A DNA stretch of 23,119 nucleotides, from positions 1 through 23,119 of the IMG/VR virus record IMGVR_UViG_3300030419_003879; one strand, 5' to 3'. The notes beneath the pieces are model-generated. The model was not told the origin of the DNA. It made no database searches and worked only from the letters and a program-made list of their open reading frames with translations. The translations under genes were made by a program, and so were the position numbers. Below are positions 7,173 through 22,185 of this stretch, piece by piece. Source of the DNA: a virus. Numbering within the stretch: the stretch's first letter is position 1; each line of letters opens with the position of its first letter.

Positions 7173-7423
7173 TGTGCCCAGAATGTAATACCAAAACGAA
7201 AGTGACCGCCTCGAGGAGCTTGGCTTCGCCAGGCCGAGGCTGGGAAATGAGGCGAGCTGAGGCAATGGTTGGGTGGTACACCCAAGACTTTGTCGTAAGG
7301 ATTCGTCACTGCCCAGAGTGTCGTTCAAACACATTTACCATTGAACTGCCTATGGAAGACATCAAAGGAATCATTTCCGAGACTGCTGTAGGACATGCAC
7401 CGAAGTCATTGACGCAAAGGTGA
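7169..7423 (+). CDS. NrdR-like zinc-ribbon protein, 84 aa
   Basis: It starts MMCPECN and has a second CPEC about 46 residues later (IRHCPECRSNTFTIE), giving one four-cysteine zinc ribbon. The pattern CPxC, basic stretch, (R)xxCPxC, FT(I/Y)E resembles the zinc-ribbon half of NrdR, the regulator of ribonucleotide reductase genes, but the ATP-cone half is absent. ATG 7169 overlaps the helicase stop (ATGA); GTG 7154 upstream is less likely. It is probably a small DNA- or protein-binding factor; the target is unknown. Confidence 0.75.
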   Translation: MMCPECNTKTKVTASRSLASPGRGWEMRRAEAMVGWYTQDFVVRIRHCPECRSNTFTIELPMEDIKGIISETAVGHAPKSLTQR

Positions 7424-7887
7424 AGATGAGAAAGAAACAACCAAAGCTAACCATTGTGCCGATTACCTTTGCTGAGGCAAAGGAGTACATCAGCAAGCAC
7501 CACAGGCATCACAAGCCGAGCATCAGCGCCAAGTTCTCTGTTGCTGTGGCAGATGAGGCCAACGAGATCCGTGGTGTTGCGATGGTAGGTAGACCGATTG
7601 CACGGATGCTGGACGATGGGTGGACCCTCGAGATTACGCGGGTTGCTACCGATGGTTGTCCGAACGCATGCTCGTGTCTGTATGGCGCAGCATGGAGAGC
7701 AGCGCGTGCATTGGGATATCGACGGGTTGTCACGTACACATTGCCAGAGGAGGGCGGGACTTCGCTCAAGGCCTCTGGATACGATTTGGTTGGCCAGGCT
7801 GGCGGAGGCAGCTGGAGCCGCAAAGACCGACCGCGAGTAGACCTCCATCCAACACAAGTAAAATTCAAATGGGAGAAACGATCATGA
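7420..7887 (+). CDS. XF1762-type phage protein, probably acyltransferase-like, 155 aa
   Basis: The features recalled for this phage family are all present: AKEYISKHHRHHKPS near the start, GVAMVGRPIARMLDDGWTLE, then TDGCPNACSCLYGAAWRAAR, GYRRVVTYTLPEEGGTSLKA, and GGGSWSRKDRPR. The order of strands and helices resembles a GNAT-type fold, which would imply an acyltransferase, though its substrate is unknown. It is common beside phage replication genes. GTG 7420 overlaps the previous stop (GTGA); ATG 7426, two codons later with AAAGGTG upstream, is an equal alternative. It overlaps the SSB start by ATGA. Confidence 0.85.
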   Translation: MKMRKKQPKLTIVPITFAEAKEYISKHHRHHKPSISAKFSVAVADEANEIRGVAMVGRPIARMLDDGWTLEITRVATDGCPNACSCLYGAAWRAARALGYRRVVTYTLPEEGGTSLKASGYDLVGQAGGGSWSRKDRPRVDLHPTQVKFKWEKRS

Positions 7888-8378: not shown

Positions 8379-8567
8379 GTGGCACGCCGTAAGCCTAAGA
8401 TGACTCAGCTGGTAGTTTCTATTGAGGAGGGACTGATGGAGTGGTTGGTGGCAAGTGCCGAGCAAAAGAACCAGACCGTCGAGCGTCGTGTTCAGCGGAT
8501 GTTTGAACTTGAGCGAAAGACGGACCAACGACGCAAAGAATCTGCGACATGGAGGCAGCATGACTGA
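8379..8567 (+). CDS. Ribbon-helix-helix-like small protein, 62 aa
   Basis: The open frame begins inside the tRNA, so the real start must be later. GTG 8379 follows GGAGG at 8370-8374 and is chosen; ATG 8400 is an alternative. A strand (TQLVVSIEE) followed by two helices (LMEWLVASAEQKNQ; TVERRVQRMFELERK) resembles Arc/MetJ-type ribbon-helix-helix regulators, which bind operators as dimers through the N-terminal strand. It overlaps the radical SAM gene by 8 bases and may regulate it or the operon. Confidence 0.65.
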   Translation: MARRKPKMTQLVVSIEEGLMEWLVASAEQKNQTVERRVQRMFELERKTDQRRKESATWRQHD

Positions 8568-9432
8568 GGAAAGAATCATCCGGGTGTTCCCACGCCGTAC
8601 ATCGCATACACCTAAGGACCGTCTTGCGTTCATCGGAGATCCGCCGCTGTTCCGTCCCCGTGTTGAGGATGTCTCAGAGGTCCACATCTCAGTGACCTTT
8701 ACATGGGACATCAAAGAGGCTGAGCGACTGCAGCGGGCGTGGGGAGCGTTGTATCCAGTGGTCAAGATTGGTGGTCCAGCACTGGATAGTCCAGAAGGGA
8801 AGTTCATCCCAGGCAAGTACATCAAGCCTGGGGTGACCTTCACTACTCGTGGGTGCAACCGGAAGTGCCCGTGGTGTCGTGTCCCTCAAACTGAGGGCTT
8901 GTTGTCTGAGTTTGATGACTACCCGCCAGGTTGGATTGTGCAGGACAACAACTTCCTGCAGGCAAGCCAAGAGCATCAGGCTGGTGTGTTCGAAATGCTT
9001 AGAACGCAACCGCACCCCATTCAGTTTGCTGGAGGCATTGACGCTAGGCTGGTGAACCCATGGTTTGCAGAACAACTGAAGACCATTCGACTGGGGCAGT
9101 TGTTTCTTGCCGCAGACACATCGCTGGCTGTTCGTGAGCTCGCTAAAGCCAGAGAGATTCTCAAGGACTTTCCCAGGAAGAAACTACGGTCGTACACCTT
9201 GATTGGATTTGGTAACGACACAATCGAGAAAGCCACCGAGAGGTTGGAGAAAGTCTGGGAGATTGGGTGCATCCCGCACGCCCAACTCTACCAGCCCGAG
9301 AACAACTGGATTGACTACTCACGGGAGTGGAAGCTGCTCTCGCGCCTATGGTCCCGTCCAGCTGCGATGTACGGCATGCACAAGGCCAAGCAAGCAATCA
9401 CTGACAAAGTTGAGCAGGTCTTGTTCGAATAG
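8560..9432 (+). CDS. Radical SAM protein, 290 aa
   Basis: The sequence TTRGCNRKCPWC places three cysteines at residues 99, 103 and 106 in the CX3CX2C pattern that binds the 4Fe-4S cluster of radical SAM enzymes. Further on, AGGIDARLV and YTLIGFGNDTIEKATERLE match the barrel and late glycine motifs. The N-terminus (RVFPRRTSHTPKD, IGDPPLF, VTFTWDI) resembles a family seen in other phages. Substrate unknown; methylthiolation or another modification of host or phage RNA or protein is possible. ATG 8560 follows GGAGGCAGC. The FmdB-type zinc ribbon next to it may be its partner. Confidence 0.88.
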   Translation: MTEERIIRVFPRRTSHTPKDRLAFIGDPPLFRPRVEDVSEVHISVTFTWDIKEAERLQRAWGALYPVVKIGGPALDSPEGKFIPGKYIKPGVTFTTRGCNRKCPWCRVPQTEGLLSEFDDYPPGWIVQDNNFLQASQEHQAGVFEMLRTQPHPIQFAGGIDARLVNPWFAEQLKTIRLGQLFLAADTSLAVRELAKAREILKDFPRKKLRSYTLIGFGNDTIEKATERLEKVWEIGCIPHAQLYQPENNWIDYSREWKLLSRLWSRPAAMYGMHKAKQAITDKVEQVLFE

Positions 9433-9441
9433 GAGAAGAGA

Positions 9442-9627
9442 GTGCCCCTATATGAATACATGTGTGAGAGTTGTGGTGACCGCCGTGAGGTACTGCAGAA
9501 GCACGGTGACCCACCGCCTGTGTGTCAGCAGTGCAAGTACGAAATGAAAAAGCAGATTTCTGTGACGAGCTTTTCTCTTCAGGGTGATGGCTGGGCAAAA
9601 GATAACTACGGATTGAAGAATGGCTGA
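9442..9627 (+). CDS. FmdB-type zinc-ribbon protein, 61 aa
   Basis: MPLYEYMCESCGDRREVLQ, followed by PPPVCQQCKYEM, matches the FmdB (putative regulatory) zinc-ribbon family: two CxxC pairs near the N-terminus and the tail FSLQGDGWAKDNYG. These small proteins often accompany metabolic operons but have no proven function. GTG 9442 follows AGGAGAAGAG, whose TAG is the radical SAM stop. It overlaps the next ATG by 8 bases. Its place beside a radical SAM gene suggests a paired role, perhaps substrate or iron-sulphur handling; that is inference. Confidence 0.88.
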   Translation: MPLYEYMCESCGDRREVLQKHGDPPPVCQQCKYEMKKQISVTSFSLQGDGWAKDNYGLKNG

Positions 9628-10111
9628 GCACTCCTTAGACGACATCGTTCACTCGATTCAGTCAGCTGTACTTGCTGCGACTGACATTGCAGAGCGCCAC
9701 GAACTTGACTCAATTATGAACCAGGAGTTCTGGGAACAGAAGGTCGATGCGAATGGAGACCCCGTAACGGATGATGACGGAAAGCACATATATGTACCTC
9801 GCACAGTCGTCATGGAGATCCCAACGTGGGAAGACGGAAAGCTCGTCCAGCGACGAGTACCTGTACCGCTACAAGCCCTCACGACTGGTCAAAGTCTACA
9901 AGTGGACACGCTCGAAGTTGAGATGTCTGTGGAGATCTCGGGTCTGAAGTCATCTAAGAACAAAGGCACGTTGATGGTTAGACCGTGTAGCCACGCATCG
10001 TGGTTCAAAAAGGAGACCAATACTGCTAAGCTGAAGCTCATCTTCAAGGGCGCAGAGCCACCAGAAGGTTATGCAAGAATCGATGACCAACTAATTAAGT
10101 TGCTTCCGTAG
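9620..10111 (+). CDS. DUF2589-type protein A, 163 aa
   Basis: The pattern is a helical start (SLDDIVHSIQSAVLAATDI), then a charged region with a proposed beta sheet (RTVVMEIPTWEDGKLVQRRVPVPLQAL), then LQVDTLEVEMSVEISG. This is the companion type to DUF2589 proteins, which often occur as adjacent pairs in bacteria; their function is unknown. There is no signal peptide or membrane segment. ATG 9620 overlaps the previous gene by 8 bases. The stop TAG is part of the TAGGAGAA SD of the second copy. The two proteins may form a complex. Confidence 0.75.
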   Translation: MAEHSLDDIVHSIQSAVLAATDIAERHELDSIMNQEFWEQKVDANGDPVTDDDGKHIYVPRTVVMEIPTWEDGKLVQRRVPVPLQALTTGQSLQVDTLEVEMSVEISGLKSSKNKGTLMVRPCSHASWFKKETNTAKLKLIFKGAEPPEGYARIDDQLIKLLP

Positions 10112-10120
10112 GAGAACATC

Positions 10121-10729
10121 ATGGCCGACTCCCTTGTAAACATGTCGTCGCAGTTCGGCGGGCTTCCCATGGACCAGCTGATTGGTGGTCCTCTTAAGGC
10201 TGCCTGTAGCGCTCAGACTCTTCTTGCTAAGGCGTCTAGCGACTTCATCAAGGACGTTGGCCTAAACGATTCTGGCGGCGGCAACATGGCTGCCCGCACT
10301 GTGGACTTCAGCTTCAACCGTCCAAGCCAAGATGCTGATGGCACAACCAAGATGGAGAAGGTGGACCTCCAGGTTCCCCTGCTTGCAATCATCAACACCC
10401 CAGCTCTTTCAGTGAAGGAGGCTGAGGTTCGGTTCACGATGGAAGTGAAGTCATCCACGTCCAGCAAGCAGACTTCCGACGCCAAGGCAGACCTTACAGC
10501 GCACGCCAAGTACAACGCTGGACTCTTCTCCTGCGATGTCACTATTCACGGCTCTGTGGCCACTCACAGCGAGAATAGCCGCAAGAGCGACAACAGCGCG
10601 AAGTACGACGTAAAGGTCGTTGCTCGCGACGACGGCCCGCCTGAAGGACTGATGAAGGTTCTCGACATGCTCAACGATGCAATCGCCCCCACGCCTAGTG
10701 CGGGCAGCCCTTCTGGAGGAAAGAAGTAG
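10121..10729 (+). CDS. DUF2589 protein B, 202 aa
   Basis: The start (LPMDQLIGGPLKAACSAQTLLAKAS, then FIKDVG) and the middle (VDLQVPLLAIINTPALSVKEAEVRFTMEVKSS) match the DUF2589 family closely, as does HGSVATHSENSRKSDNSAKY near the end. The function of DUF2589 is unknown. The N-terminal amphipathic helix and beta-rich body suggest an oligomeric or lipid-associating protein, but that is inference. The C-terminus is a short Pro/Ser/Gly tail. It directly follows protein A and precedes the secreted protein at 10757. Confidence 0.87.
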   Translation: MADSLVNMSSQFGGLPMDQLIGGPLKAACSAQTLLAKASSDFIKDVGLNDSGGGNMAARTVDFSFNRPSQDADGTTKMEKVDLQVPLLAIINTPALSVKEAEVRFTMEVKSSTSSKQTSDAKADLTAHAKYNAGLFSCDVTIHGSVATHSENSRKSDNSAKYDVKVVARDDGPPEGLMKVLDMLNDAIAPTPSAGSPSGGKK

Positions 10730-10756
10730 GGCTACACCACCCCAAAGAGAGACAAC

Positions 10757-11059
10757 ATGATTTTACTACTACTGATATCCCTAGCTACAGCTGGGGATCA
10801 TGACGGCAAGATTTACACCTACAAGATTCAAGAAGAACTTGTAGATGACATGGAGTATTGGGTCAAAGCATCCAACGGAGTCTTCTACTGCAAGGCTACT
10901 GTTTCATGCATTGGTCTTGATGTAGGTACGGAGATCCAGTCGTATCGACCAACGTGGCTTGGGCCGTTGCGCATCTACTACTTTGATGCCGATGTACTCA
11001 GGTACTGCGAGCTCAAGAGTTGTCAGAAAACCATGCCATTGGACTACCGAGATCTATAG
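10757..11059 (+). CDS. Small secreted or periplasmic protein, 100 aa
   Basis: MILLLLISLATAG is a short, clear signal peptide, with cleavage likely after residues 11-13. The mature part of about 87 residues is beta-rich with four cysteines, at FYC, VSC, RYC and KSC, a number that fits two disulphide bonds in an oxidising compartment. I do not recognise a family. ATG 10757 has AAAGAGAGA upstream. Export of a small disulphide protein next to a DUF2589 pair suggests an envelope target, for example superinfection exclusion; this is inference. Confidence 0.7.
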   Translation: MILLLLISLATAGDHDGKIYTYKIQEELVDDMEYWVKASNGVFYCKATVSCIGLDVGTEIQSYRPTWLGPLRIYYFDADVLRYCELKSCQKTMPLDYRDL

Positions 11060-11069
11060 GAGAAGCAAC

Positions 11070-11402
11070 ATGGGAATCCGAGGGAACTCTCTAAGGGGAG
11101 TCGTACTGTCTTACATCATGTCAGAGCCTGGCAGAGAGACAATCAACACTATTGCCAAAGACCTCAACACGGACGGTGAAGACCGTGGCAAGCGCTACCG
11201 TGCAATCTTCAATGCAGTGGAGAACCTCGAGCAACGAGGCTTCATTAAGGTTGGCCTTGGGCCCAATAAATCCAACAGTGAACTGTGGCCAGACGAAATG
11301 ATCTTTCAGGAATCAGGTGTCTTTAAACGCCATTCGGAGTGTGACCTTGGAGGTCGGGCTATTCAGAGTAACTTGCCCACCGCCGAGTCCCTTTTCCGTT
11401 GA
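11070..11402 (+). CDS. Winged-helix-like protein, 110 aa
   Basis: ATG 11070 follows TAGGAGAA, whose TAG is the previous stop. Residues of about 8-62 (LRGVVLSYIMSEPG, then TIAKDLN, RYRAIFNAVENLEQRGFIKVG) read like a winged helix of the MarR or ArsR-like kind: helices, a recognition helix, then a beta wing. The last 30 residues or so overlap the end of the leftward gene at 11313 by 90 bases. The tail is thus unusual and may reflect insertion of the leftward pair into this gene's 3' end. It is the last rightward gene of the accessory block. Confidence 0.68.
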   Translation: MGIRGNSLRGVVLSYIMSEPGRETINTIAKDLNTDGEDRGKRYRAIFNAVENLEQRGFIKVGLGPNKSNSELWPDEMIFQESGVFKRHSECDLGGRAIQSNLPTAESLFR

Positions 11403-11690
11403 GCACCAGACACGCATTCCGGCAAGGATGGGGAACCCCGCACCAAAGATGTAATGCGTGGTGTTGTTGGCAGGAAAGTACAGAAGGGTGTCATTTTGCG
11501 TTGAGGTTGCACCACCAGATGCCGCCCAGTTGATGCGTACCCAAACGGCTTTCTCGTTTGGGTTTACGCCTTCAACCATGTAGAGCGTCGTGTTCGCATC
11601 GTTGAATGTCTCAAGAGTAGTGTTCGCCTCTGTATCGACAACGACGGTTGTATAAAGAGGACTGGATACGGTACTTGTGCTTACACCCAT
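11313..11690 (-). CDS. Beta-rich structural-type protein, second of pair, 125 aa
   Basis: It is encoded leftward, opposite to its neighbours. Low-complexity, Thr/Asn/Val-rich sequence (MGVSTSTVSSPLYTTVVVD) suggests an all-beta virion-type protein. Its start lies 9 bases after the stop of the MALK protein at 11700, so the two form an operon. The pair matches the order of the pair at 21425-22185, and the second members share Ser/Thr-rich strands and a glycine turn near the end. The last 90 bases overlap the rightward gene ending at 11402. It is probably a decoration or fibre-type protein; exact role unknown. Confidence 0.68.
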   Translation of the reverse strand: MGVSTSTVSSPLYTTVVVDTEANTTLETFNDANTTLYMVEGVNPNEKAVWVRINWAASGGATSTQNDTLLYFPANNTTHYIFGAGFPILAGMRVWCSTEKGLGGGQVTLNSPTSKVTLRMAFKDT

Positions 11691-11699
11691 GATGCCCTC

Positions 11700-12065
11700 C
11701 TACGAGCAAACAGCAATGACAACGACGGTTCCACCAGGAGCATCGGTATCAGATGTGTTTGGACCATCGTTGGCCCAAAAGGTCAGCTGACTGAACGGAA
11801 GGCCGCCTGGAATATCCAGCTTCCTACTCGTGCTTGCAGCAATTCTGAACATGAGGTCAGGCTCACTGGTTCCTGCTGTGTACTCGCCAGCTGATAGAAA
11901 GAACTTGATGTACACAGTGGAACTGTGCTGGTTGTCCAAATCAAGAGAGTAAAGCGTGCCAGAAGTACCAAGCACGTCTACGTCTGCAGTTTGAGTAACA
12001 GTGCCTTGCTCAACGGTTTTGTAGGTGAGCGCGGTCGAACTATACCCTGAAACCTTCAAAGCCAT
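11700..12065 (-). CDS. Beta-rich structural-type protein, MALK paralogue, 121 aa
   Basis: MALKVSGYSSTALTYKTVEQ aligns by eye with the protein at 21823 (MALKATSFNDALDYKIINET). Both then have a 'GTLYSLDLDN'/'GKLYSVKAVN' stretch, an IPGGL turn (KLDIPGGLPF / MLEIPGGLDF), and end APGGTVVVIAVCS or APDGGTVALTLVCS. These are clear paralogues of similar length. ATG 12065 has ATGGGAGACTCGAC upstream. A leftward extended -10 lies at 12104-12112. Structural function is inferred from the copy beside tail and lysis genes. Confidence 0.8.
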   Translation of the reverse strand: MALKVSGYSSTALTYKTVEQGTVTQTADVDVLGTSGTLYSLDLDNQHSSTVYIKFFLSAGEYTAGTSEPDLMFRIAASTSRKLDIPGGLPFSQLTFWANDGPNTSDTDAPGGTVVVIAVCS

Positions 12066-15691: not shown

Positions 15692-15937
15692 TTACTTCTT
15701 AGCAGTCTTCTTCTTGGCGGGTGCCTTCTTAGCCGGTGCCTTCTTGGCTGGCGCCTTCTTGGCGGGTGCCTTCTTGGCGGGTGCCTTCTTGGCCGGCTTT
15801 GGTGCCGCAAGTTCGGCTTCCAGTTGGTCGATGTACCTGAAAAGTACAGGAACTACGTCAGTCAGCTGATAGCCATGACGGCAGCTCTTGACCTTAGTCA
15901 CGATTCGCATTGCATCGACTTTATCTTTGAGACTCAT
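15692..15937 (-). CDS. H1-like Lys/Ala/Pro-rich DNA-binding protein, 81 aa
   Basis: The frame is open from codon 15985, but ATG 15937 has GGAGTGGACA just upstream. The first 50 residues are a small helical domain (MSLKDKVDAMRIVTKVKSCR, YIDQLEAELA). The last 30 are about six repeats of the (A)PAKKA type, the kind of basic tail found in histone H1, chlamydial Hc2 and some HU proteins. It would bind DNA non-specifically and may compact DNA. The tail is encoded by a 15-base tandem repeat. It lies 14 bases after the regulator gene in one leftward operon. Confidence 0.8.
   Translation of the reverse strand: MSLKDKVDAMRIVTKVKSCRHGYQLTDVVPVLFRYIDQLEAELAAPKPAKKAPAKKAPAKKAPAKKAPAKKAPAKKKTAKK
15721..15795. 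repeat. 15-base tandem repeat encoding the basic tail
   Basis: Five copies of a 15-base unit related to GTGCCTTCTTGGCGG run head to tail, with single-base changes mostly in the third codon positions. They encode the Pro-Ala-Lys-Lys-Ala units of the leftward H1-like protein. Copy number could change by slippage or recombination. Confidence 0.9.
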
Positions 15938-15951
15938 TGTCCACTCCAATC

Positions 15952-16191
15952 TTAAGAACGCAGACTGGAATTCAAACCAGGCCACTCTCTTACAGAGACT
16001 ACACCACCGGTTGCTTTTTCGATACCAATCGCCAGTGGCAACGATGGTGTCTTTCGCCCATTTTCAAGGTCACGAAGGTATCCAATGCTTAAACTTAAAT
16101 CGAACTCACCCAGTTGTTCATTGAGCCACTTCGTAAATGCGACTCGAGTACTTTTTCCGGGCAAACTTTTTCGGTAGGTTTCGACAACCAT
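15952..16191 (-). CDS. Cro/CI-like XRE-type regulator, 79 aa
   Basis: ATG 16191 has AAGGTGTGTCTA upstream; two earlier in-frame starts lie inside the operator region. The sequence KSTRVAFTKWLNEQLGEF, then LSIGYLRDLENGRKTPSLPLA, then IEKATGGVVSVREWPG is a typical small Cro-like helix-turn-helix; 'I.KATGG.V.V' is the usual last part of the fold. It faces YqaJ-RecT divergently, with a palindrome between them. It probably represses one or both directions, as in lysis-lysogeny switches, though no integrase is seen here. Confidence 0.85.
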   Translation of the reverse strand: MVVETYRKSLPGKSTRVAFTKWLNEQLGEFDLSLSIGYLRDLENGRKTPSLPLAIGIEKATGGVVSVREWPGLNSSLRS

Positions 16192-19606: not shown

Positions 19607-19878
19607 GAGTCTTTGTTCTCAATCATCTTAGCAATGTCTTTCTTGAGCTGGTCCTGCTTCTTCGACTCAATGATGACATCGAGCTTGGCGTTGTTTGACG
19701 AAAGCTGCTCAGCAATATCAGATGCTACTGACTCGCTCTTGGCCATGACTCGGTCAAGACGCTTCTGCGCAAACCAGTTGGTGGCGATCAAGTAGATGGC
19801 GAAGATGCCCATCGCTCCGTACTCCAGCAGTGCGGTGACTACACTGCTGGTGGTATCGGATACAACCTCGCCTTCCAT
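19603..19878 (-). CDS. Single-span holin-like membrane protein, 91 aa
   Basis: Residues of about 17-36 (LLEYGAMGIFAIYLIATNWF) form one membrane helix, followed by a charged coiled-coil-like C-terminus (KRLDRVMAKSESVASDIAEQL). The design resembles small BhlA/UviB-type holin-like proteins, which also place one helix before a charged tail. ATG 19878 overlaps the lysin stop by one base. Its stop is the reverse of the same CTAG used by the rightward gene. It probably helps release or activate the lysis enzyme, but this is not proven. Confidence 0.65.
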   Translation of the reverse strand: MEGEVVSDTTSSVVTALLEYGAMGIFAIYLIATNWFAQKRLDRVMAKSESVASDIAEQLSSNNAKLDVIIESKKQDQLKKDIAKMIENKDS

Positions 19879-20453
19879 TAGTCCTGTGGCTCGTCGATCA
19901 AGGTGTAAGTGAACTGCGGGCCATAGGTCTCAGCGGACTTCTCGACGATGGCCATGAACGCAGCAAAGTCATCGGCGTTTGCCCAGACTTGGCAGCCAGC
20001 TGACCACTTGTCTACTTCAGTAGAGTGAGAGCCTGCCTTGTGCAGATTAATGCCCCAGTAACCGTCCTGCTCAGTAGCAGGGTCCATATCGAGGATGTCG
20101 TCCTTGTTGTTGTCCCGATATACACAAACGCGACCACCGGTCTGCACCAGCGCCTTGTACTTGCCGCGATGAAGACCAATCTTGTGTGACCCCCGATACT
20201 GGCCGGGCACAAGAATCGCTGTTCCCTTGACGTTCATTGGGTGCTCTCGCCAGTAGGTGCCAGGGTCTGTTGTGCAGTGCCAAGTACGAGTGACCCATCC
20301 GTGCTCATCCTTGTAGACCACATACATATGGTCGTTAAACTTATTGGCGTTGTCGTCAGGCGTGCGGACACCGATGATATTCAGGTTGTATAGTCCATTC
20401 TCAAAAACGGCATGGCCTAAGGATTCGACATGGTCAAGGATTTGAGGTCTCAT
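19878..20453 (-). CDS. L,D-transpeptidase-like lysis protein, 191 aa
   Basis: Its hallmark is GYWGINLHKAGSHS followed by KWSAGCQVWAN: H138 and C154 in the SxGC arrangement match the YkuD-type catalytic Cys-His pair that cuts or joins peptidoglycan cross-links. Upstream, PMNVKGTAILVPGQYRG and IGLHRGKYKALVQ match phage members I recall. No signal peptide is seen, so export would need a holin. It overlaps the gene upstream (20450-20740) by ATGA and the holin-like gene downstream by one base. It is the likely endolysin. Confidence 0.82.
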   Translation of the reverse strand: MRPQILDHVESLGHAVFENGLYNLNIIGVRTPDDNANKFNDHMYVVYKDEHGWVTRTWHCTTDPGTYWREHPMNVKGTAILVPGQYRGSHKIGLHRGKYKALVQTGGRVCVYRDNNKDDILDMDPATEQDGYWGINLHKAGSHSTEVDKWSAGCQVWANADDFAAFMAIVEKSAETYGPQFTYTLIDEPQD

Positions 20454-20740
20454 CTACAACGTGCCCCCGTGGCCTGACAGATGGCCGACTGGTTGGTCAT
20501 TAGTGTCTTGAGGTCGCGAGACATCTCATTCTGCTGAGTCTCGATCTTCTCAATACGAGTCTCTCCCGCCGTGTGGCCCTCAGCTGCAACATGAATAGCA
20601 AGCTCACTCTGCTGCGTATCAAGCGTTTCTTGAATCTTGGTCACGTCCGAAGACATGGCTTCAAGGTGCCACCATCCACCACCAGCAAGGAACACAACAC
20701 TGCAAATCCAAATGACCAACTTCGTGTCCATTTCTTTCAT
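20450..20740 (-). CDS. Membrane protein with coiled coil, spanin-like, 96 aa
   Basis: Residues of about 6-22 (TKLVIWICSVVFLAGGG) anchor it in the membrane. The rest is a charged helical region (VTKIQETLDTQQSELAIHV, ETRIEKIETQQNEMSRDL) likely to form a coiled coil. An N-terminal helix plus long coil is the design of i-spanin and Rz proteins, but no lipoprotein partner is clear. ATG 20740 is used; ATG 20731 is an in-frame alternative. It overlaps the lysin gene by ATGA. Confidence 0.62.
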   Translation of the reverse strand: MKEMDTKLVIWICSVVFLAGGGWWHLEAMSSDVTKIQETLDTQQSELAIHVAAEGHTAGETRIEKIETQQNEMSRDLKTLMTNQSAICQATGARCR

Positions 20741-21177: not shown

Positions 21178-21428
21178 CGTCTTCGTCTCGCGTTGCCCAG
21201 AGCAGCAAGATCGTCACCAGGAGAGTCCCCAGTAGTAGCAGATCGAATACGATCTACTTCCTCCTCAAAGCTTTCTTGAATGACCTTGCCAGCCGCTTTG
21301 GCCGCACGGTTTTCAGGTGGCTTTGCGTCCTTTTTTTTGAAAAACTCTTTTCGATGCATGAACGCTAAGAGAGCTCCGACTCCAAGCAAAGAAATAATGG
21401 TCAAAGCCTCATTAATCCAATCGCTCAT
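21174..21428 (-). CDS. Small single-span membrane protein, 84 aa
   Basis: ATG 21428 overlaps the upstream stop (ATGA), so it is preferred to GTG 21434. Residues of about 8-24 (ALTIISLLGVGALLAFM) form one membrane helix; then a basic region (HRKEFFKKKDAKPP) sets the inside orientation, then an acidic helical tail and a final Arg run. This design is common in phage holin-type proteins. It lies between the structural pair and the lysis genes. Confidence 0.65.
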   Translation of the reverse strand: MSDWINEALTIISLLGVGALLAFMHRKEFFKKKDAKPPENRAAKAAGKVIQESFEEEVDRIRSATTGDSPGDDLAALGNARRRR

Positions 21429-21814
21429 GAGCACACCAACTTAACGATGACATCATTTGCTGCAGCAGTTGTGTCGCCAATAGTCACGCTTGTGGTTCCC
21501 CAAACAGAAACGCCAGCAGCATACGTATGACCATCTGGAATAACGTAGGTGATCTTCTGGTATGCCGGACAAGAGAACATCAAGTCTGGAGTCCCTGCAC
21601 CATTTGATGCCGTGTTGGCTGGCGCAGCACTGCTGGCGTCCTTGATCTTGAAATAGAACGTCGTGGAGTTGGTGGTGTTGTCGATTTGAACTAGATAAAT
21701 CTTTCCACTACTTGCACTCGTGACGTTAGCGCTAGCTGTAGATGCCGATACCGCCAAGTCGATGACAATCTTGCCGCCAAGAGCGGTGATCGATGATGTT
21801 GTCGATGAAGCCAT
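21425..21814 (-). CDS. Beta-rich structural-type protein, second of pair, 129 aa
   Basis: TTG 21817 is also open, but ATG 21814 has GAGGTGATTG upstream and is preferred. Ser/Thr/Ala-rich beta strands (MASSTTSSITALGGKIVID) and the end VIVKLVCS resemble the MALK paralogues. It follows the 21823 gene in the same order as the 11313-12065 pair, with SD sequence overlapping the upstream stop. It is probably a virion surface or tail-associated protein. Confidence 0.72.
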   Translation of the reverse strand: MASSTTSSITALGGKIVIDLAVSASTASANVTSASSGKIYLVQIDNTTNSTTFYFKIKDASSAAPANTASNGAGTPDLMFSCPAYQKITYVIPDGHTYAAGVSVWGTTSVTIGDTTAAANDVIVKLVCS

Positions 21815-21822
21815 CAATCACC

Positions 21823-22185
21823 TCAGCTGCAAACAAGAGTTAACGCAACAGTGCCACCATCTGGTGCAGTTGTATCCGTTGGGCTTTGGTATCGTGTGGC
21901 CGCAATGCTGAGTGTGGTGAAATCAAGCCCGCCAGGGATCTCCAGCATGGAGGTAGCACTTCCAGTTATTGCAACGACAAGCACTGGGAGTGTTGCCCCA
22001 AGAGTAGGGTTCGGGTCATCAAAAATCTTCACGAACGATGCGCTACTCGACCCATTGACGGCTTTCACAGAATAGAGCTTACCAGGCGCAATCGTGACAT
22101 TCGAGTTCAGGCTGTTTGTTGCAGCCGTCTCGTTGATGATCTTGTAATCAAGCGCATCATTGAAACTGGTAGCCTTAAGCGCCAT
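21823..22185 (-). CDS. Beta-rich structural-type protein, MALK paralogue, 120 aa
   Basis: MALKATSFNDALDYKIINET aligns by eye with the 11700-12065 product, as does the LYS(V/L) strand, the MLEIPGGL turn and the ending GGTVALTLVCS. No disulphide pattern or signal peptide is seen. ATG 22185 has AGGTAGACC upstream. It lies among tail-side genes, so its pair here is likely the resident one and the pair at 11313-12065 the moved copy, though the direction is inferred. Confidence 0.8.
   Translation of the reverse strand: MALKATSFNDALDYKIINETAATNSLNSNVTIAPGKLYSVKAVNGSSSASFVKIFDDPNPTLGATLPVLVVAITGSATSMLEIPGGLDFTTLSIAATRYQSPTDTTAPDGGTVALTLVCS

Follow-up and report, generated by a model that had tools for sequence, protein, structure and literature searches.

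The window analysed here, 23,119 bp long, is an IMG/VR virus record in its entirety. It carries two adjacent genes, D1 and D2, whose products are the only DUF2589 proteins recovered by a profile search of the whole record. Both exceed the curated cut-off of the family, which is 23 bits, and a profile-profile comparison shows the two proteins to be mutually homologous (hhalign, 98%). The genes and features relevant to this pair are the following.

8560..9432, + strand: radical SAM gene (rSAM); phrog_9298 at 5e-24, CxxxCxxC present by eye; a neighbour, outside the cassette
9442..9627, + strand: FmdB-type zinc ribbon protein, 61 aa; NCBIfam TIGR02605 at 9.6e-15, Pfam Zn_ribbon_8 at 4e-11
9620..10111, + strand: D1, the smaller DUF2589 protein, 163 aa; PF11655 at 5.3e-15, 56.5 bits
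10121..10729, + strand: D2, the larger DUF2589 protein, 202 aa; PF11655 at 1.3e-43, 149.4 bits
10757..11059, + strand: EXP, 100 aa, four Cys and a short hydrophobic N-terminus; a neighbour outside the cassette that adjoins rSAM in relatives
11070..11402, + strand: wH, 110 aa, possible winged helix by eye; a neighbour outside the cassette, 3′ of EXP in cassette-less relatives
19878..20453, − strand: endolysin, 191 aa, the proposed functional partner; phrog_33083 (endolysin) at 6e-16, invariant H...SAGC motif
20450..20740, − strand: Rz-like spanin candidate of the lysis cassette; weak match to phrog_739 at 6e-4, one hydrophobic N-terminal segment
9442..10744, + strand: the cassette FmdB-D1-D2, missing as a single block from close relatives
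9436..9442, + strand: AAGAGAG at the left cassette edge, one of five copies in the window and possibly there by chance
10745..10751, + strand: AAGAGAG at the right cassette edge; the empty site carries AAGAGA once

An earlier note on this DNA had placed a radical SAM gene and an FmdB-type gene upstream of two adjacent DUF2589-type genes and had counted four Cys in the 100-aa protein, and the matches above bear this out. It had also called the product of the next gene a winged-helix protein; this fits by eye and the gene is conserved, but the protein has no match in Pfam, PHROGs or NCBIfam. EXP likewise lacks a family match in Pfam or NCBIfam. Because EXP and wH are conserved at 75-94% in relatives, we regard both as real genes, and the hydrophobic N-terminus of EXP makes its export plausible. 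The further claim that all junctions are tightly coupled by TAGGAGAA does not survive inspection. A stop codon leading into GGAGAA or GAGAAG is found at three of the five junctions (rSAM/FmdB, D1/D2 and EXP/wH), the FmdB and D1 reading frames overlap by 8 bp, and the D2/EXP junction, where the cassette ends, carries no motif of the GGAGAA type.

Elsewhere in the window, positions 7420-7887 encode a Mom-like DNA modification protein (phrog_1384, 1e-37) with 97% identity in the relatives L195 and L196. A 97-aa protein on the minus strand (15692-15985) has a repetitive tail rich in Lys, Ala and Pro (AKKAPAKKAP...), of histone-H1-like composition, and similar tails occur in related phages. Several small, mutually similar proteins are also encoded on the minus strand (11313-11690, 11700-12065, 21425-21817 and 21823-22185). 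About half of the related phage loci have several divergent copies of this type, and those that were scanned have no PHROG match.

A portable three-gene cassette

At ~83% DNA identity, the relatives L195 and L196/L202 align colinearly with the window on both sides of the cassette. Their alignment stops at window position 9441 and resumes from 10745, so that the block 9442-10744 is missing, and the empty site, read directly, consists of rSAM, 20 bp, and then EXP and wH, nothing else intervening. At other loci D1-D2, in many cases with FmdB, is found in the absence of rSAM, EXP and wH. Because these relatives keep rSAM-EXP-wH and lack exactly FmdB-D1-D2, the unit is a 1.3-kb cassette of three genes that were gained or lost as one piece, and rSAM, EXP and wH are residents of the site.

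The earlier note had read all six genes as one self-contained accessory module whose members should recur together. A six-gene module is rejected on the evidence of the empty site. What stands is an accessory cassette of FmdB-D1-D2, with the putative exported protein and regulator as residents outside it; similarly, the six-gene set fails to co-occur in the genomes surveyed, but the D1-D2 pair recurs almost without exception. The FmdB and D1 proteins of the window are closest to those of L011, the replication genes of which are of a different class, and gain of the cassette by the window is therefore favoured over loss by its relatives. In one phage with a window-type endolysin (93%), FmdB is followed by a wH-like gene (37%), with no D1-D2 in the stretch examined (L189:11767-12136).

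Recurrence of the pair and constraint on its sequence

The window-type phage set comprises the best 80 of 184 viral relatives of D2. Within this set D1 is found with D2 in 79 of the 80 loci, usually 9 bp upstream, and FmdB is present in 53 of them. The pair of these phages lies on the same strand and in the same operon as replication and recombination genes, not lysis genes. Among eight phage records of 55-75 kb, seven have exactly two DUF2589 genes, and the eighth shows one, at a contig edge.

Identity to the window proteins among the best 80 of 184 is ~87% for D2 and ~81% for D1; the D2 value is biased upward because these relatives are the closest ones, a bias that affects D1 less, as the search did not start from it. 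Median identities for the exonuclease, RecT, primase and VirE-like proteins on the same contigs are 28-50%. Synonymous sites in D1 and D2 are near saturation (pS ~0.70, dS ~2) and dN is ~0.11, compared with 0.37-0.84 for the other genes. A dS of ~2 with so low a dN indicates that the identity of D1 and D2 is held by selection; recent lateral transfer as its cause was rejected on account of the near-saturated dS.

A second large phage group, probably phages of Bacteroidota from the look of their lipoproteins, carries both D2 and D1 in 80 of 80 loci and includes contigs of ~270 kb. In this group a small zinc ribbon gene lies beside the pair in 66 of 75 loci, compared with 3 of 142 control windows, and in the other phage group a zinc ribbon adjoins the pair in 45 of 63 loci, compared with 15 of 180. 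No such linkage is evident in bacteria (2/78 versus 11/205). Five phage contigs of 250-274 kb, which is jumbo-phage size, have a DUF2589 pair together with a zinc ribbon (L302, L304, L306, L309 and L361).

Association with endolysin genes in phages

An endolysin gene is convergent with D2, ~1.4 kb beyond it, in 54 of the 80 window-type loci (best 80 of 184). The window itself lacks this arrangement, its endolysin gene lying 9 kb from the pair on the opposite strand. In L244/L243/L256 and in L278, two lineages at a greater distance, the pair is directly upstream of the endolysin gene on the same strand and in the same operon. L278 has the zinc ribbon gene first, then D2, D1, the endolysin gene and a spanin-like gene, with a gap of 2 bp between D1 and the endolysin gene.

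Between phages with only 8-14 reciprocal best hits in common, the endolysin, D2 and D1 rank with the most highly conserved proteins, and this is also true of G005, although the genes there are far apart. The divergence of D2 follows that of the endolysin (0.42) and of D1 (0.40) more closely than that of RecT (0.16) or the exonuclease (0.19), and the identity of D1 is decoupled from that of the replication genes. When the search was started from the endolysin, whose relatives were sought with an alignment query (a single-sequence query gave 5 loci), 16 of 24 large endolysin-bearing records proved to be without DUF2589. The endolysin therefore does not depend on the pair, and the pair is optional. 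Within the stretch examined, an endolysin or GH19 enzyme is encoded in 22 of 80 loci of the second phage group.

DUF2589 loci in bacteria

A scan of one bacterial genome per species yielded 296 relatives, the best 80 of which were analysed. Almost every one of these 80 loci has a D1-type gene close to D2, and the window-type endolysin was found in none of them. Four bacterial genomes that were searched whole have exactly two DUF2589 copies, and in Vibrionaceae the family is present in 22 of 247 genomes, nearly always as neighbouring copies.

A third protein of ~90 aa, termed T, is encoded beside the pair in 76 of the 80 bacterial loci (L089-L168; for example, L131:8659-8928). Its consensus is VxRxVVGxxNP...LNRCL...GEHQVV...YHVGFxRKP. 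T corresponds to no model in Pfam, NCBIfam or PADLOC, and was not found in the 80 phage loci or in the window. An independent search for T in Vibrionaceae recovered it from 8 of the 22 genomes with DUF2589 and from 0 of the 225 without (Fisher p 1e-9). T is close to D2 in all 8 genomes that carry it, and the other 14 DUF2589 genomes lack it. Proteins of ~146-214 aa with no Pfam match and a D1-like N-terminus are encoded at L104:9036-9680, L099:7145-7684 and L112:9003-9443, and judging from this resemblance they may be a third, divergent DUF2589-like subunit.

Of 44 non-redundant bacterial loci, 28 encode a peptidoglycan hydrolase or peptidoglycan-binding protein no more than 3 kb away, compared with 2 that encode one at a greater distance, counts that are approximate owing to simple gene calling on GC-rich contigs and that leave out a 29th locus, which rests on the seed L121, not confirmed as a hydrolase. 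A Pfam tally of near neighbours versus distant genes agrees with this linkage. The hydrolase genes usually run in the same direction as the core and are often less than 100 bp from it. Their class is exchangeable between loci (GH108, GH19, GH24, Amidase_2, CHAP, Muramidase and others), whereas D1-D2-T is constant. The hydrolases are leaderless, in that 25 of 25 hits have no N-terminal hydrophobic segment. No hydrolase is nearby in 16 of the 44 loci. Small hydrophobic, holin-like proteins near the core are rare (4 of 44 loci, also an approximate count), and at least two have signal-peptide-like starts.

Some bacterial loci also have toxin-like neighbours, namely a TcdA/TcdB-type glycosyltransferase, patatin, a WHH/colicin-type nuclease or a pesticin-type lysozyme. 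Genes for the glycosyltransferase, patatin and WHH/colicin-DNase-type nuclease kinds are located at L123:4973-6499, L085:418-1941, L094:9006-10001 and L131:8913-10214.

Structure predictions and profile searches

AlphaFold models of D1 and D2 each predict a long N-terminal helix, a beta-sheet and a C-terminal helix, with a pLDDT of 77 for D1 and 65 for D2; residues 113-156 of D2 are effectively unmodelled. With these models of modest confidence, Foldseek against the PDB gave no match at E 0.001 and none below E 0.08, and the best VIA Z scores were 3.5 for D2 and 2.9 for D1, which is no convincing match to a solved fold. The only significant BFVD match to the D2 model is a protein of 178 aa, 34% identical and presumably another DUF2589 protein. 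A sequence search for relatives of solved structure returned none for D2 and a chance row for D1 (E 0.21). Because the models are of modest quality, we do not claim a new fold.

Pfam assigns D1 and D2 to DUF2589, with one further sub-threshold chance row and no peptidoglycan hydrolase family, and NCBIfam contains nothing for D1, D2, T, EXP or wH. No PADLOC defence model matches D1, D2, EXP, wH or rSAM, and the zinc ribbon yields a single chance-level Cas8b row (E 0.095). Neither D1 nor D2 of the window has a transmembrane segment (maximum 19-residue hydropathy 0.91 and 1.12, respectively), and T has no hydrophobic segment.

A possible partner of endolysin-type hydrolases

In phages the constant neighbours of the pair are lysis genes, and in bacteria they are wall hydrolases. 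From this context we therefore propose that D1-D2 is a cytosolic two-subunit partner of endolysin-type peptidoglycan hydrolases, a reading to which we give about an even chance. A cytosolic location would agree with the lack of hydrophobic segments in D1, T and the window D2. We infer that D1 and D2 would form a hetero-oligomer in the cytosol, and that this oligomer would work with endolysin-type peptidoglycan hydrolases. In phages it might assist or time host lysis. In bacteria, D1-D2 and T might work with a dedicated leaderless hydrolase that opens or passes the cell wall, and the role there would probably be lysis or the release of leaderless proteins.

The recurrence of the pair, its constraint, the hydrolase linkage in 28 of 44 bacterial loci, the co-conservation with the endolysin and the arrangement in L244 and L278 all argue for this proposal. 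Counted against it are the distance of 9 kb to the window endolysin, the 16 of 24 endolysin records without DUF2589, the presence of an endolysin or GH19 enzyme in only 22 of 80 loci of the second phage group, the 16 of 44 bacterial loci with no hydrolase nearby, the position in a replication operon, and the lack of a recognised fold in D1 and D2. To our knowledge, Archaeoglobus has no peptidoglycan. Archaeoglobus fulgidus has four neighbouring short DUF2589-related genes, AF0414-AF0417, which are reported to be up-regulated on lactate (PMC3949148), and these archaeal genes caution against linking every member of the family to peptidoglycan.

The strongest competing explanation is a regulatory or host-takeover complex that acts early. 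Here the zinc ribbon and a D1-D2 oligomer would target a conserved protein or RNA of the host during the early or middle phase, and nearness to lysis genes would reflect an end-of-operon site that collects accessory genes. The shared strand and operon with replication and recombination genes in window-type phages, the zinc ribbon beside the pair in both phage groups well above controls (66/75 and 45/63 versus 3/142 and 15/180) and the very strong constraint on D1 and D2 are all consistent with such a complex, which we consider possible if rather unlikely, since it leaves unexplained both the repeated link to many hydrolase classes in bacteria and the operon shared with the endolysin in two other phage lineages.

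A structural or virion-associated assembly, with D1 and D2 building a ring, tube or shell, is improbable. The Foldseek neighbours of the D2 model do include coat, tail-tube and FliF ring proteins, all of them weak and non-significant. However, the pair, with D2 more than 84% identical, occurs in phages sharing few or no recognisable virion proteins, and the chromosomal pair of bacteria accompanies hydrolases, not phage structural genes.

The earlier note had suggested that a module with EXP and the regulator might modify the host envelope or mediate superinfection exclusion, which now appears very improbable. FmdB-D1-D2 is indeed an accessory cassette in a phage, and the hydrolases provide a link to the envelope, but EXP and wH are outside the cassette, PADLOC offers no defence model, most large endolysin-bearing phages are without the cassette and no immunity context was seen. 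Nothing speaks specifically for this suggestion; the genes that recur beside the pair encode peptidoglycan hydrolases and lysis proteins, and these implicate the envelope at the lysis stage of infection. Finally, that the high identity reflects only the recent spread of a mobile cassette and is uninformative on function would suit the exact presence/absence of the block between close relatives and the decoupling of D1 from replication genes, but is largely excluded, and in our estimate exceedingly improbable, as the substitution pattern of D1 and D2 (pS ~0.70, dS ~2, dN 0.11) shows identity held by selection.

Returning to the hydrolase-partner proposal, a broader version of it can be formulated, which we put forward as a speculation that is more probably wrong than right by a wide measure. 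D1, D2 and, in bacteria, T could make up an unrecognised machine, present in several bacterial phyla and in their phages, jumbo phages among them. With no holin involved, it would activate leaderless peptidoglycan hydrolases, and perhaps the toxin-like proteins encoded nearby, or transport them across the envelope; phages would take it up as a zinc ribbon joined to the pair, a cassette that aids lysis or sets its timing.

DUF2589 is a widespread family that has received almost no study, and the analysis supplies a testable role for it. The family divides into two subclasses that are nearly always paired, accompanied in bacteria by the unclassified protein T, and in phages the zinc ribbon and the pair make up a portable cassette. 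If the pair does serve peptidoglycan hydrolases, an unknown part would be added to phage lysis, and bacterial hydrolases would have a possible holin-free route.

Comparison with known systems

D1 and D2 both score above the cut-off of DUF2589 (PF11655), but the family entry gives no function. In the literature searched, DUF2589 is mentioned only in passing, and we found no description of the paired subclasses, of T or of their association with zinc ribbons and hydrolases. The cassette opens with a gene for an FmdB-type zinc ribbon protein (TIGR02605), whereas the second phage group has another small zinc ribbon at the same place. In several phage lineages the pair adjoins, or is embedded in, a phage lysis cassette of holin, endolysin and spanins. 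It differs from these known components in that D1 and D2 match no holin, endolysin or spanin profile in Pfam, PHROGs or NCBIfam, and in that many phages with the same endolysin are without D1-D2.

The type 10 secretion system (T10SS) is a holin/endolysin-derived export system in which a leaderless endolysin-type hydrolase is encoded with accessory genes (PMC9527704, PMC13284979). We found no mention of DUF2589 in the passages of these papers that were consulted. The bacterial DUF2589 loci likewise combine a leaderless endolysin-type hydrolase with accessory genes and sometimes toxin-like neighbours, but they rarely have adjacent holin-like genes (4 of 44), a holin encoded elsewhere being possible. 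Because a linked holin was not found, we do not class these loci as T10SS; by analogy, it is nevertheless T10SS that the bacterial DUF2589 loci would seem to resemble most closely in their working.
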